From positions 248,001 to 312,000 of the forward strand of contig NC_017243.1 of NCBI RefSeq assembly GCF_000223215.1: a DNA stretch of 64,000 bases, written 5' to 3'. Shown here piece after piece: positions 35,094 to 59,229 of the stretch. This stretch comes from Brachyspira intermedia PWS/A. Its GTDB lineage: Bacteria > Spirochaetota > Brachyspiria > Brachyspirales > Brachyspiraceae. The translations under genes were made by a program, and so were the position numbers. Below the pieces are notes generated by a model. It was not told the DNA's origin and did no database searches. It worked only from the letters and a program-made list of their open reading frames with translations. How positions within the stretch are numbered: the stretch's first letter is position 1; the number at the start of each line of letters is the position of its first letter.

Positions 35094-35132
35094 AAAAAAT
35101 TGTGAGCATCTATAAGACACTCACAATTTTTA
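35094..35132. repeat. Long hairpin in the fabH / DUF2314 spacer
   Basis: AAAAAATTGTGAG pairs with CTCACAATTTTT over about 12 bases. A- and T-rich ends make it terminator-like in both directions. Confidence 0.6.
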
Positions 35133-35137
35133 TTTTT

Positions 35138-35250
35138 TATTATTGCTAATAAAAATTGTTCGCTCTCGCTATGCGTGCCTACAGCAAAGGCTCTGTCAAG
35201 TAAACTTGCCAGAGGCTCACAATTTTTATAATTAGCTTTACAATATTTAA
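35138..35250. repeat. Duplicated gene-end segment, outer copy
   Basis: TATTGCTAATAAAAATTGTTCGCT...GGCAAAGGCTCTGTC...CCAGAGGCTCACAATTTTT matches 35449-35543. This copy has an extra run of about 18 bp (CTCGCTATGCGTGCC) after the common start. It looks like a copy of the terminator region of the DUF2314-like gene. Confidence 0.7.
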
Positions 35251-35264
35251 TAATTATTATTTTT

Positions 35265-35360
35265 TATTGTTATGCTCGTGACGAAGTCCACCTTTGGTGC
35301 AGCCCACAATAACCTACTTGGTGGCTACGACTCGCTTTTATATTTTAATTCTAATGTTTT
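35265..35360. repeat. Mobile-looking ~95-bp element, inverted copy
   Basis: Its ends TTGTTATGCTCG and CTCGCTTTTATATTTTAATTC are the reverse complement of the ends of the element at 40210-40308. The GC-rich interior differs (GACGAAGTCCACC, TGGTGGCTACGA). Confidence 0.65.
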
Positions 35361-35362
35361 AA

Positions 35363-35422
35363 AGCGATAAACGAGCAGCTGATAACTTTAGTTGTCAGCT
35401 GAATTTTAGCGAGTTTATCGCT
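35363..35422. repeat. Nested hairpin element, copy 1
   Basis: Outer stem AGCGATAAAC/GTTTATCGCT encloses inner stem CAGCTGATAACT/AGTTGTCAGCTG. An inverted copy lies at 59024-59087. Confidence 0.75.
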
Positions 35423-35448
35423 AGCAATAATAAGAAATTATTCTTCTT

Positions 35449-35543
35449 TATTATTGCTAATAAAAATTGTTCGCTTGGCAAAGGCTCTGTCAAGTAAACT
35501 TGCCAGAGGCTCACAATTTTTATAATTAGCTTTATAATATTTA
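35449..35543 (-). terminator. Terminator region of the DUF2314-like gene (inner copy of the duplicated segment)
   Basis: On the minus strand AAAAATTGTGAGCCTCTGG opens a nested stem: inner CTGGCAAG/CTTGACAG, and outer AAAAATTGT/ACAATTTTT ending in T5. It directly abuts the stop codon at 35548. Confidence 0.65.
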
Positions 35544-35547
35544 AAAA

Positions 35548-37068
35548 TTATTCTTCTTCTTGAAATAATAAATATATATTTCTTGAATTATAGTTATTTT
35601 CTTCTGTGTATATCTCCCAATCAGTAAGCCTTTCTATGCTATGCATTCCTCTGTCGCCTTCATGCATACCTAAATCTTTATAAGGTTCATTTATTAAAGT
35701 AGCATCAAAATATCCGTCATTAGTAAAGTCATGAACATCAAACCATAAATGCTCTAAGTCATTAGGGTTTTCTTCTGTTTCGCCGTATCCTAATTTTACT
35801 AAAAAAGAAGTTTTGTCATCGCCTTTATTTTTATTTAATAATTCTAGGAAATACTCTAATTTTTCAAAAGCAGCCTCTCTCATAAGAGAAGTTTCAAAGT
35901 AACTCATCATAAACATAGGGTTATCTGTAAGCTCATTTTTATAATAATCAAGAGAATGATAATTACCATCAGCATCTACAGCAAGCAAAATACCGGAAGG
36001 AGTATTATGTACCCCATCATTTCTGTCTTTTGCACTTCCTGTAACATCATCAGCAATATTTAATTTCTTCAAAGCCTCCTGCCAAGGGAACCAGCATACA
36101 TAAGTGTTATATGCAGGATTAAATTTAAATCCGGCTTCAGGTACTCCTCTCTCTATAAACATTTTTGCACAAGTATTGAGTAATGCACCATAAGCAGCAT
36201 TTGAATCTTCAACACCAACTATTTCTAATTCTATAGAACCGACTCTGTAAAGTCCATGAGTATGGAACCAATATTCAACTTTGTTAGAGTCTTTATCATC
36301 ATCATAAACTGCATGTATAGTGTATAGATAATCCAAAGAAGGCGGCAAAGCGAAAGTTGATGTATAAGAAAGCCAATCTCCGGAATGTGCTGTATAACAA
36401 GACATATCTAAAAATATAGAACATTCGGGAACTAAACTGTCCAATAATTTTAATTGTCTTTGATAGTCAGTAAGAGGGTGATTATCAAATATTGTAGATA
36501 CATGTACAGCATATTTACATTGACATGCTTCTTTATAATCATCTTCTCTTACAGTATTTACAGAGAATATTTCAGGAACATTTTCAGTAACGCTTGAAGC
36601 ATCAACTAAAGCTACATAAAAAGTAAGCTCATCATTATTTTCTTCTTCATCATGATTATGCCCGCAACCGCAGGAATGCTCTTCATCATCATGACTATGA
36701 CCGCAACCGCAAGAATGCTCTTCATCGTCATGATTATGCCCGCAGCCACATGAGTGTTCATCATCATCTTGACAGCATCCGCCTTCATCATGTCCGCATC
36801 CGCAAGAATGTTCGTCTTCATCCATAACCATAGGTAAATACTGCAGTTTAATATATGCTTCCCATTTAGATTTATCTCTTATAAATTTAGATTCTTCTAT
36901 TTCATTGAATTCTAATACCATATATTCATCTGATTGTGATAATATATCTCTGAATTCTTCAATTGTCATATTATGATCATATTCTTTAGTAAATACAGCA
37001 GCCATCCATGATTCTAATCTCTGCTCTCCGCTGGAAAATACATTATATAACTTTTCATTATAATCCAT
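35548..37068 (-). CDS. DUF2314/DUF4026-like protein with Cys/His metal-binding repeats
   Basis: 506 residues, no signal peptide. The C-terminus (EHLWFDVHDFTNDG...IERLTDWEIY) resembles DUF2314. A segment at about 83-143 is a tandem repeat of the 13-residue unit EHSCGCGHNHDDE: three full units plus a related EHSCGCGHDEGGCC unit. It offers about ten Cys and ten His for Zn, Ni or Cu. The repeats are also exact or nearly so at DNA level (39-bp period, 36640-36822), so the unit number can change by slippage. The remaining 360 residues are well conserved-looking globular sequence of unknown role. Metal buffering or sensing is inference only. Confidence 0.7.
   Translation of the reverse strand: MDYNEKLYNVFSSGEQRLESWMAAVFTKEYDHNMTIEEFRDILSQSDEYMVLEFNEIEESKFIRDKSKWEAYIKLQYLPMVMDEDEHSCGCGHDEGGCCQDDDEHSCGCGHNHDDEEHSCGCGHSHDDEEHSCGCGHNHDEEENNDELTFYVALVDASSVTENVPEIFSVNTVREDDYKEACQCKYAVHVSTIFDNHPLTDYQRQLKLLDSLVPECSIFLDMSCYTAHSGDWLSYTSTFALPPSLDYLYTIHAVYDDDKDSNKVEYWFHTHGLYRVGSIELEIVGVEDSNAAYGALLNTCAKMFIERGVPEAGFKFNPAYNTYVCWFPWQEALKKLNIADDVTGSAKDRNDGVHNTPSGILLAVDADGNYHSLDYYKNELTDNPMFMMSYFETSLMREAAFEKLEYFLELLNKNKGDDKTSFLVKLGYGETEENPNDLEHLWFDVHDFTNDGYFDATLINEPYKDLGMHEGDRGMHSIERLTDWEIYTEENNYNSRNIYLLFQEEE
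36640..36822. repeat. 39-bp in-frame tandem repeat encoding CGCGH units
   Basis: Three near-identical 39-bp units (two with GHNH, one with GHSH) plus one diverged unit lie inside the DUF2314-like gene. Confidence 0.8.
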
Positions 37069-38219: not shown

Positions 38220-40064
38220 ATGAAAAGGATACATAGTTTATCTTTCAAAGTTCCTGCTATAATATCAGTAATATCCATATTAATAATATTTATTATATTA
38301 AGTATAGCAGTAATGTTCGCTAATAAAGGTATAAGCAAAAGCAGATTTGAAGGCTTTGCTAATACAGCACAATCATATGCTAAATTGTTTGATGCCATAT
38401 TGATAGATCAGGTTTCTTTAGCTAAGACTTATTCAGTTGCTCCTGCAATTATGAATTCGCTTTTAAATAGAAATGAACAGACAGAAGCTGTGGCTTTAAA
38501 TGCTTTAGCTTTATTTAATGGAGCTAATGAATATTCTATAAATATAGCTGTAATAGATTTGAATGGTGATATTATAGCTGATGCTTTGGGAAATTCTATA
38601 GGTAATAATATTGCTGATACAAGGCCTAATTTTTGGAATATATTAGAAAGTAAGAATTTTGAATATACATTTGATGAGGAAATAATAGATTCAGTAGATA
38701 CTGGAAACAAATCATTGATATTAGGCGGTGCTATAAAAAGTTTAGATGGAAATTTATTGGGAGCAATACTTGTTGTAATAGACTGGAAACTTATACATGA
38801 TAATTATTTTTCAGATATAGCTTTGGGAGAAACAGGAAGAATATTAGCAATCGATTCTAATTTAATTGATATAATGGATAATATTTATGAGCAAATAGGT
38901 TCTAATGTAGTTCAGGATTATAAAACAGTATTTGATAATAATTTAAATCAAGGTACATTATCATATATTTATATGGATAAAAAAAGAACAGGTTCTTATT
39001 GCAGAATGAAGTCTATGAATTGGATAATTGCTATGACTATGTTTGACAGTGAAATATATGCTACAAATAGGGAATTAATTTTAATAAGTTCATTAGTAGG
39101 ATTGATTGCTATTTTATTATTATCTATATTTGTGGCATTGTTTATAAAAAGAATAATGGGACATATAAACAGTATTATAAGAGAGGCTAAGGAAATAGAG
39201 ACAGGAAATTTGACTTATGTTTCAAATGAGCATAAGAGAAAAGATGAGCTTGGAATATTGTTTGAATCTTTCAGCGGAATGCGTAAGAAACTTACAGAGA
39301 TAATATCTCAGGTTAATGATTCTTCTATTAAAATAACTACAGCAGCTCAGGAATTAGCTAATGGTAATTCTGATTTATCAAGAAGAACAGAGGCACAGGC
39401 TGCAAGTCTTGAAGAAACTGCTAGTTCTATGGAGGAGATGGCTTCTACAATCAAATCTTCTACTTCGCATTCTATAGAAGGTAATAATATGATGAAGGAA
39501 TCTATGAGTTCAATTAAGGATGCAGGAGCTATAATTTTAGAAACTACTAAAAGTATAGAAGAGGTTAATGAGGACAGCGAAAAGATAAAGAACATAACAA
39601 AGGTTATAGAGGATATTGCTTTCCAAACTAATATATTAGCACTTAATGCTGCAGTTGAGGCTGCACGTGCTGGAGATCAAGGTAAAGGATTTGCTGTAGT
39701 AGCGAGTGAGGTTAGAAATTTGGCACAGAACTCCCAGTCTTCAGCTAAGGATATTACAACTTTAATTAATGTTATATATGATAAGATTAGTAAATCAGTA
39801 GAGAAAGCAAAAGAGTCTGAAAAGATATTTGAGGATTTGGAAAAGAAAATAGAAGAAACTTCTAATATAATGAGGGATATAAGCGAAACAGCAATAGAAC
39901 AGCAGGCAGGAGTTGATCAGGTAAATACAGCGGTTTCACAAATGGATAGTGTAACACAGCAGAATGCTGGATTGGTAGAACAATCAGCTTCAGCAGCAGC
40001 TTCTTTGTTAAATGAAGCTAGAGAACTAGAAGAAGCAATGCGCTTCTTTAAGCTAGATAAATAA
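38220..40064 (+). CDS. Methyl-accepting chemotaxis protein
   Basis: 614 residues from the ATG at 38220, which has TTGGAG 7 bp upstream; an earlier ATG at 38181 lacks a site. Membrane helix at about 10-32, periplasmic Cache-like sensor, second helix at about 285-310, HAMP, and a long signalling coil with [18 protein letters not shown] and [12 protein letters not shown]. The protein ends in [13 protein letters not shown]. It is a relative of the receptor at 26.6 kb with a different sensor. Two orphan copies of its last 16 codons and of its terminator follow directly downstream. Confidence 0.93.
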
Positions 40065-40086
40065 TTACTTTGAATGAAGTCTTTAT

Positions 40087-40146
40087 AAAAAAATTGACAG
40101 CCGTCTGATAATTTATTATCAGAGCCTTTTAGGCTGTCAATTTTTA
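40087..40146 (+). terminator. Chemoreceptor terminator, copy 1
   Basis: TTGACAGCC...GGCTGTCAA encloses TCTGATAAT/ATTATCAGA and is followed by T5. The stem is long and nearly perfect. Confidence 0.88.
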
Positions 40147-40157
40147 TAATAATAAAA

Positions 40158-40205
40158 GCTAGAGAACTAGAAGAAGCAATGCGTTTCTTTAAGCTTGAAA
40201 AATAA
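40158..40205 (+). pseudogene. Orphan chemoreceptor tail, copy B
   Basis: Sixteen codons ending in a stop ([15 protein letters not shown]) repeat the end of the receptor gene, with no body upstream. The spacing from the true tail is 141 bp. Confidence 0.85.
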
Positions 40206-40209
40206 TAAT

Positions 40210-40308
40210 TTTTTAAATATTAGAATTGAAATATAAAAGCGAGCCGAAGCCCTTAACTTAATTTATTAAGTTAAGCCTTTAGGCGTAGGCGAGCATAACA
40301 ATAATAAA
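40210..40308. repeat. Mobile-looking ~95-bp element inserted in the tail repeat
   Basis: From TTAGAATTGAAATATAAAAG to GCGAGCATAACAATAATAAA. The centre is a perfect CTTAACTTAA/TTAAGTTAAG stem. The element is absent from the equivalent spacer 40065-40086 behind copy A, which marks it as an insertion. An inverted relative lies at 35265-35360. Confidence 0.75.
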
Positions 40309-40323
40309 ATTGAAGTCTTTATA

Positions 40324-40381
40324 AAAAAATTGACAGCCGTCTGATAATTTATTATCAGAGCCTTTTAGGCTGTCAATTTTT
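40324..40381 (+). terminator. Chemoreceptor terminator, copy 2
   Basis: Identical stem to 40087-40146, behind orphan tail B and the inserted element. Confidence 0.85.
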
Positions 40382-40393
40382 ATAATAATAAAA

Positions 40394-40441
40394 GCTAGAG
40401 AACTAGAAGAAGCAATGCGCTTCTTTAAGCTAGATAGTTAA
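40394..40441 (+). pseudogene. Orphan chemoreceptor tail, copy C
   Basis: Sixteen codons ([15 protein letters not shown], stop) again match the receptor end without any upstream body. Confidence 0.85.
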
Positions 40442-40467
40442 TTAAAATAATTTATTTGAATCTTTTA

Positions 40468-40527
40468 TAAAAAATCTACCGCTGTCTGATAATTTATCAT
40501 TAGGGTCTTTCAGGCGGTGGATTTTTT
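40468..40527 (+). terminator. Chemoreceptor-type terminator, copy 3 (diverged)
   Basis: AAAAATCTACCGC pairs with GCGGTGGATTTTT around a diverged version of the inner TCTGATAAT stem. Confidence 0.75.
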
Positions 40528-40565
40528 ATATTAAAACCTGAGATTTATAATATCAAGGCTAAATT

Positions 40566-40898
40566 TTCATTCCCCACCCTATATTCTGCTGATTTACTTT
40601 TGAATTCTAATTTTTTATTTCTTAATTGTTTATAAAGAATTTATAGCTCCCACCCTAGATATTTTTTAATTTATTACTTCCACACCGCACGTAGAATAAA
40701 ATTAAAAATATGAGTGAATTAATTATAACAATTATATTATATATGAAATTTATCTAACCGTGCGTTAAGTTAATTTTTAAATCTAATCACAGTTTGGGTG
40801 GGTGCCTTATTTTCTTAATAGACTTTAAATATAAGAAAATTTAAAATTGCAGATTATAACAATAAAGAATAAAGGGCGGGGTATGTAAATAAAATTTC
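40566..40898. repeat. Palindromic GGGCGGG-class dispersed repeat, copy 4 (full length)
   Basis: Arms CCCCACCCTATATT...CTCCCACCCTAG and GTTTGGGTGGGTGCC...AAAGGGCGGGG flank the inner pair CCGCACG and CCGTGCG. The architecture is the same as copy 2. Together with the chemoreceptor tails it accounts for the whole 900-bp gap. Confidence 0.75.
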
Positions 40899-40970
40899 AA
40901 AATATAATTGTTTTTATATTTTATTCAAGCCCATATATTTTTAAGAATTCGCTTAATATAGTATGCATAA

Positions 40971-59007: not shown

Positions 59008-59023
59008 TTTTATTATTATTGCT

Positions 59024-59087
59024 AGCGATAAACTTTTTATTTTTAATATATCTGACAACTAAAGTTATCAGCTGCTCGTTTATCGCT
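59024..59087. repeat. Nested hairpin element, copy 2
   Basis: Inverted relative of 35363-35422: AGCGATAAAC...GTTTATCGCT around TGACAACT/AGTTATCAGCTG. It lies just behind the ABC operon and may end its transcript, though the T run is weak. Confidence 0.7.
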
Positions 59088-59229
59088 TTAAAAAATTAAT
59101 ATATAATTTATCATATAACAGTTTTATATGTTTTAACCTTAAATTAGTAAAATAAAAAATAATTTTTATTATAAATAATAATAAAAGTTTTTTATATTTA
59201 AATAACATATATTTTTAAGGAAACAAATA

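Follow-up and report, generated by a model that had tools for sequence, protein, structure and literature searches.

T1, a dispersed hairpin element of Brachyspira that is probably mobile and often abuts translation starts

A 99-bp insert behind a chemotaxis gene of Brachyspira intermedia PWS/A belongs to T1, a MITE-like family of hairpins that lack inverted ends and were found only in Brachyspira, a genus of spirochaetes, and in prophages of that genus. Copies are dispersed, occupy orthologous sites in some hosts and prophages but not in others, fold on the sense strand and are nearly always oriented in sense within transcription units; they combine an RNA-level signature with an unusual preference for translation starts. 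On balance, we regard T1 as a non-autonomous mobile element, ~70-110 bp long and specific to Brachyspira, which is moved in trans, persists within transcripts and is compatible with translation starts. Since the searches yielded no mobilising enzyme, its transposition is inferred. If this reading is correct, unrelated genes across Brachyspira, including the glycolytic pgk, have time and again acquired a small hairpin at their ribosome-binding sites, and many unannotated hairpins in these genomes would be explained. The filled and empty sites would offer a natural series for measuring how a hairpin acts when it lies upstream of a Shine-Dalgarno sequence or across one, and T1 would pose a clear question about its mobiliser.

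The insert behind the chemotaxis gene

The window, a stretch of 64,000 nucleotides, contains a methyl-accepting chemotaxis protein (MCP) gene with MCPsignal and HAMP domains (Pfam), the 3' tail and terminator of which occur as three tandem copies on the plus strand (40015-40543). Tail A (40015-40155) comprises the gene end and a terminator hairpin (40089-40146), tail B (40156-40391) the same repeat with the insert and a terminator at 40325-40382, and tail C (40392-40543) is more divergent. Alignment of the repeat units showed tail B to be 99 bp longer than tail A, with the best placement of the extra DNA at 40207-40305; a sequence-only reading, which had put an extra ~95 bp without counterpart in tail A at 40210-40308, was right to within 3 bp. 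The corresponding empty site (AAATAAT/TACTTTG) lies in tail A at 40059-40066.

The insert is a long form of T1, consisting of an AT-rich 5' arm, a hairpin and a CAATAAT tail, all read on the plus strand. The arm (AATTTTTTAAATATTAGAATTGAAAT, 40207-40232) is common to a subset of copies, recurring at L002, L004, L007, L009 and L015 and in several other genomes. The T1 core (40233-40308) matches our covariance model R1 with 95.7 bits and contains the hairpin GCGAGCCGAAGCC...GGCGTAGGCGAGC (40239-40294), which carries tandem G.A mismatches and is supported by RNA folding, covariation and conserved G.A columns. Its apical stem-loop (CTTAACTTAATTTATTAAGTTAAG, 40252-40275, loop TTTA) is the exchangeable part, and conservation within the family is highest in the 3' tail (ATAACAATAAT, 40295-40305). 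The insert stretch folds better than shuffled sequence (z -2.9), and the T1 model gives the MCP terminators a weak score (32 bits). The tail B copy is an ordinary member of T1, located behind the MCP gene and away from any start; it is outside coding sequence, and a strong effect is improbable.

Two features of the neighbourhood are recorded here. The number of tandem MCP ends with their terminators varies by species, from one in G024 to three here and seven in G007. Farther on, at 40560-40900, lies another and larger intergenic repeat, whose inverted parts are CCCACCC...GGGCGGG and CGCACG...CGTGCG; a ~330-bp relative, found in G025 and G022, is missing from G000 at concatenated position 66.4 kb, just outside the window.

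Filled and empty sites

The orthologous MCP site is empty, and free of any scar, in G007 (all seven tandem tails), G024, G021, G004 and G017; tail A of G025 is also empty. Three genomes carry related hairpins at this site: G022 has the same T1 plus a hairpin of type T2, and G023 and G025 have an inverted hairpin of type Z together with a T1 whose tip differs. Because the site is empty without scar in five other Brachyspira genomes and holds related hairpins in three, insertion is the derived state. The sequence-only reading had taken filled and empty sites in one sequence as direct evidence of mobility; these sites are real, but the tails of one genome cannot by themselves separate insertion from deletion, and it is the comparison across species that does so. 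That tail A has instead lost the element, an option left by the symmetry of filled and empty copies within one genome, is scarcely credible given that the outgroup tails lack the deletion scar named beforehand as a refutation and that tail A of G025 is empty as well. The history of the site may be a single entry in one clade followed by remodelling of its contents, or repeated hits; as the apical hairpin there is another one in some species and further hairpins are added in others, the present tail B copy may be remodelled rather than freshly inserted.

Mobility of this very short, non-coding hairpin finds further support elsewhere: seven unrelated loci with no flanks in common carry copies that match the window insert at 95-99% identity, and filled and empty orthologous sites were found not only at the MCP gene but also at the L002 site, in the pgk leader (23 genomes) and in prophages.

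Related hairpins in the window

An inverted relative with another interior, noticed at 35265-35360 in the earlier reading, is indeed present: positions 35260-35341 of the minus strand match the T1 model with 32 bits, and 41 nt are 88% identical to the left part of the insert. With its 5' arm the relative spans 35260-35363. It belongs to a cluster of four hairpins (35125-35560; T2, T1, Z, T2) that further comprises the terminator-like T2 (AAAAATTGTGAGC...GCGAACAATTTTTATTAGCAATAA, 35137-35240, minus strand), a Z hairpin (GCGATAAACGAGC...GCGAGTTTATCGCTAGCAATAATAA, 35358-35434, plus strand, 35 bits with the T1 model) and a second T2 (35448-35560, minus strand). The cluster is wholly missing in G025 and G007, and one T2 remains in G022. 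Another Z lies at 59011-59093 on the minus strand, and its G022 orthologue has a T2 nested within; the point of nesting inside Z is identical in G022 and G025. T2 and Z are paralogous hairpins that, like T1, have a GAGC/GCGA core together with a TAGCAATAATAA tail. Nearby, a minus-strand open reading frame (35548-37068) contains in-frame Cys/His-rich repeats at 36641-36827 (HSCGCGHNHDDEE) that may bind metal.

Family size and spread

Covariance model searches of genomes gave at least 57 T1 copies in the genome of the window and at least 87 in the richest others, with T1 present in at least 22 of the 26 genomes of the genus. G014, G022, G000 and G024 are rich in copies, and no match was listed for G001, G011, G012 and G019. 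Among the matches listed, none fell in the 270 other Spirochaetota, three of which are from the same family. In the genome-wide search by end sequence proposed at the outset, the end motif GCGAGCATAACAATAA occurred 47 times at up to 2 mismatches, as opposed to 0 for the reversed control pattern, and a pattern scan of genome contigs gave hits in Brachyspira records only. T1 is thus short, non-coding, multi-copy and present or absent at orthologous sites, as a MITE is. A keyword search of Brachyspira genome papers returned no description of a repeat of this type, and Rfam gave no match above the gathering score in the window between 34000 and 42000, where weak hits were at chance level. The genome paper on B. 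hyodysenteriae WA1 states that no insertion sequences were identified (PMC2650404).

Two local arrangements stood out. At L014, L152, L154 and L162, T1 marks the junction between gene truncations that are not the same in G000, G002 and G014, which hints at adjacent deletions or at rearrangements involving the element. In G010 (at least five T1 matches), a tandem array of three copies lies upstream of a methionine synthase activation-domain gene (L300).

Copies in prophage genes

Related prophages also provide filled and empty pairs. In two Brachyspira prophage contigs from IMG/VR (L350 and L355), T1 lies between the portal and prohead protease genes, as annotated by Pfam. In L363 it is found within the prohead protease gene itself, where 90 bp follow AATAAT in frame and add 30 residues; relatives of this protease read MTVKNNEIRSI without the insert. 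Among GenBank phages, none matched the protease region. A third site is empty in six phages, which have TTTATGAAAGTTGG with an overlapping stop and start, and is filled in four records, with T1 in L361, L362 and L419 (71 bp in L362). There the insertion supplies AGGAG before the hairpin and re-creates an ATG behind the tail. Two further scans of phage genes each yielded one or two relatives.

Rickettsia palindromic elements are palindromic inserts that lie in frame inside coding genes. The prohead protease copy of T1 resembles them in this respect; the two differ in that they belong to unrelated lineages and that T1 is mostly found between genes, in 5' leaders. The Rickettsia elements are among those named in PMC10969869.

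Structure and modularity

The T1 consensus reads AAAAGYGAGYCGNAGCC, a variable apical palindrome that usually has a TTTA loop, a bulge of 6 to 8 nt and GGCGNAGRCGARCATARCAATAAT, and it folds as one asymmetric hairpin. Among 130 distinct rows, standard pairs make up 96.6% of pair cells, and two-sided changes occur at all 18 of 18 pairs. The covariation score in this alignment, which is fitted to the model, was 0.589 versus 0.194 for shuffled and at most 0.095 for slid controls; an independent MAFFT alignment of 16 rows scored 0.658. Compensatory changes thus exceed the controls, as in a conserved structured RNA. Unpaired tandem GA/GA columns are kept in 112 of the 130 rows and are as conserved as paired columns, which suggests sheared tandem G.A pairs. 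Since G.U wobbles outnumber A.C cells six to one (90 vs 15), it is the sense strand whose fold is maintained.

The hairpin is also modular. In the pgk leader, compared over 23 genomes, the lower stem (with the locus signature GCCAAAGC) and the tail are orthologous, the apical hairpin varies among species, the number of hairpin copies ranges from one to four, and the site is empty in several other genomes. Tandem arrays likewise differ by species, with seven Z units of 111 bp in G007 and six T1 units of 89 bp in G009.

Such observations lend weight to a reading in which T1 does not transpose at all and is a conserved cis-acting RNA hairpin spread by duplication, by template switching and by recombination, either homologous or at microhomologies, with phages and the VSH-1 gene transfer agent as carriers from strain to strain. 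Arrays of three to seven copies, apical hairpins swapped over a retained locus-specific lower stem and tail, and hairpin content that differs at one orthologous site would all follow. So would one phage site at which identity shifts across T1, from 83.8% upstream to 94.3% downstream; given this shift, that copy also fits recombination. Flank homology, however, hardly explains how almost identical copies came to lie at unrelated loci that have no flanks in common, or the clean in-frame insertion into a phage gene, and we judge this account somewhat unlikely for the family.

Insertion junctions and the mobiliser

Five filled and empty pairs could be resolved, and in all of them AT immediately precedes the insert, whose own last bases are CAATAAT. 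Any target duplication amounts to AT or AATAAT at most, which in A+T-rich DNA is inseparable from bases encoded by the element; the five sites are equally compatible with a duplication of 2 bp, with one of 6 bp, and with no duplication but a fixed 3' end. A clean long duplication was rejected, as the part common to the five sites is only AT; the L002 site alone suggests 10-12 bp, but in A+T-rich simple sequence. Under the favoured reading of T1 as an element moved in trans, a candidate enzyme or recombination route would place it 3' of an AT dinucleotide.

The closest known counterparts are the ERIC, Correia/NEMIS and RUP MITEs, which measure ~100 bp, are transcribed into stable hairpins and are in some cases fused in frame to genes (PMC2229807). 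T1 resembles them in size, non-coding nature, intergenic dispersal, occasional in-frame fusion and, presumably, transcription into hairpins and movement in trans. Unlike them, it has neither terminal inverted repeats nor a clear target duplication, and no parent insertion sequence was found among end matches in the genome of the window; it further differs by its covarying hairpin with conserved G.A mismatches, by a strong bias towards the sense orientation and by a tail directly adjoining the Shine-Dalgarno sequence.

Could T1 nonetheless be a conventional MITE, that is, an internally deleted insertion sequence whose ends are recognised by a DDE transposase? This description agrees with the size and copy number of T1, its A+T-rich target and its in-trans behaviour (PMC2229807, PMC10969869), and inverted ends (TTATTATTGYTA) do exist, though only in a composite of inverted Z and T1 in G023 and G025. 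Minimal T1 copies, in contrast, start with AAAAGYGAGCC and end with TARCAATAAT, which are not mutually inverted, and the conserved end is on the 3' side only. A transposase with matching ends, which the sequence-only reading had proposed to look for, did not turn up: the end matches in the genome of the window include no autonomous or full-length element, and right-end copies almost always have a left half within 150 bp. The covarying pairing partners, moreover, are not needed for recognition of double-stranded ends. A conventional MITE is therefore unlikely.

Less likely still is a REP-like single-stranded element moved by an HUH transposase of the Y1 (RAYT or IS200/IS605) or Y2 (IS91-like) type. 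A strand-specific imperfect hairpin, a fixed 3' end and insertion 3' of a short fixed sequence would suit such an enzyme, and T1 shares imperfect palindromes and a conserved tag at one end with REP/BIME, which are associated with RAYT, and with CGTC palindromes (PMC3733652). CGTC repeats also have no known transposase, and the text of that paper does not mention Brachyspira (PMC3733652). T1 is longer than REP/BIME (70-110 bp), and the Pfam family Y1_Tnp was found in 0 of the 26 genus genomes, compared with 5 of 14 controls; Y2_Tnp occurred in one of the 26, not that of the window, in a search with no positive control genome. This largely refutes the HUH reading for resident enzymes, although a Pfam-divergent or extra-genomic HUH enzyme is possible.

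A retro-element served by a resident reverse transcriptase was rejected: RVT_1 (Pfam) is missing from the element-rich G000, G002, G014, G024 and G025, and is present in 7 of the 26 genomes, several of them element-poor. By Pfam, resident Y1, Y2 and RVT_1 proteins are excluded for the genome of the window; DDE enzymes, serine or tyrosine recombinases and recombination aided by gene transfer agents are the candidates left. The variable tip also raised integron attC sites, which were dropped because T1 has no R box motifs.

Orientation and position at gene starts

Among 124 distinct copies with flanks, T1 is in sense with the downstream gene in 113 of 122 cases and with the upstream gene in 100 of 115; in the genome of the window alone, about 22 of 27 are in sense. 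This orientation, the placement at ribosome-binding sites and the covarying fold form a wider pattern that the sequence-only reading had missed. These counts and those of spacing include copies at orthologous genes, which are not independent, so the associated p-values overstate certainty. The bias could stem from loss of antisense copies rather than from choice of site.

Spacing to the start codon is narrow. An ATG lies 6-13 nt past the end of the T1 model in 36 copies, with GGAG or AAGGA in between, and in no copy at 14-30 nt. The copies whose tail is joined to a Shine-Dalgarno sequence in this way make up a third of the copies and represent, by our own count, about 17 unrelated gene families. 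The downstream Pfam families include PGK, ribulose-phosphate 3-epimerase, 2-hydroxyacid dehydrogenase, LrgB, an EF-Tu-like GTPase that we read as SelB-like, ABC permease and the methionine synthase activation domain. Of 16 copies in which the ATG instead lies at the T1 tail, 6 have a Shine-Dalgarno sequence 5' of the hairpin, compared with 2 of 133 others.

Copies may persist at such positions because the hairpin and its unstructured A/U-rich tail (AUAACAAUAAU) would be compatible with, and perhaps helpful to, translation initiation. Upstream of a Shine-Dalgarno sequence, the tail would keep that sequence open; between Shine-Dalgarno and ATG, the folded hairpin would restore the spacing, by analogy with T4 genes 38 and 25. 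In these genes, a hairpin between the Shine-Dalgarno sequence and AUG shortens the effective spacing, and its destabilisation lowers translation (PMC3014915). A bolder version, that mobility or retention depends on the transcribed RNA hairpin, that translation initiation regions are targeted and that the mover falls outside all known transposase and reverse-transcriptase classes, strikes us as doubtful.

The arrangement known from T4 is matched at few T1 sites. As judged by sequence and fold, the hairpin separates Shine-Dalgarno from ATG at three or four phage genes, and not at the window copy; in T4 the hairpin is a fixed part of the native gene, whereas here a dispersed element supplies it. 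At one of these sites, the relative L419 has an ordinary Shine-Dalgarno sequence and no hairpin. In two other phages (L350:7640-7700 and L463:1420-1504), Shine-Dalgarno and ATG of the same gene are likewise split by a hairpin, one that is unrelated to T1.
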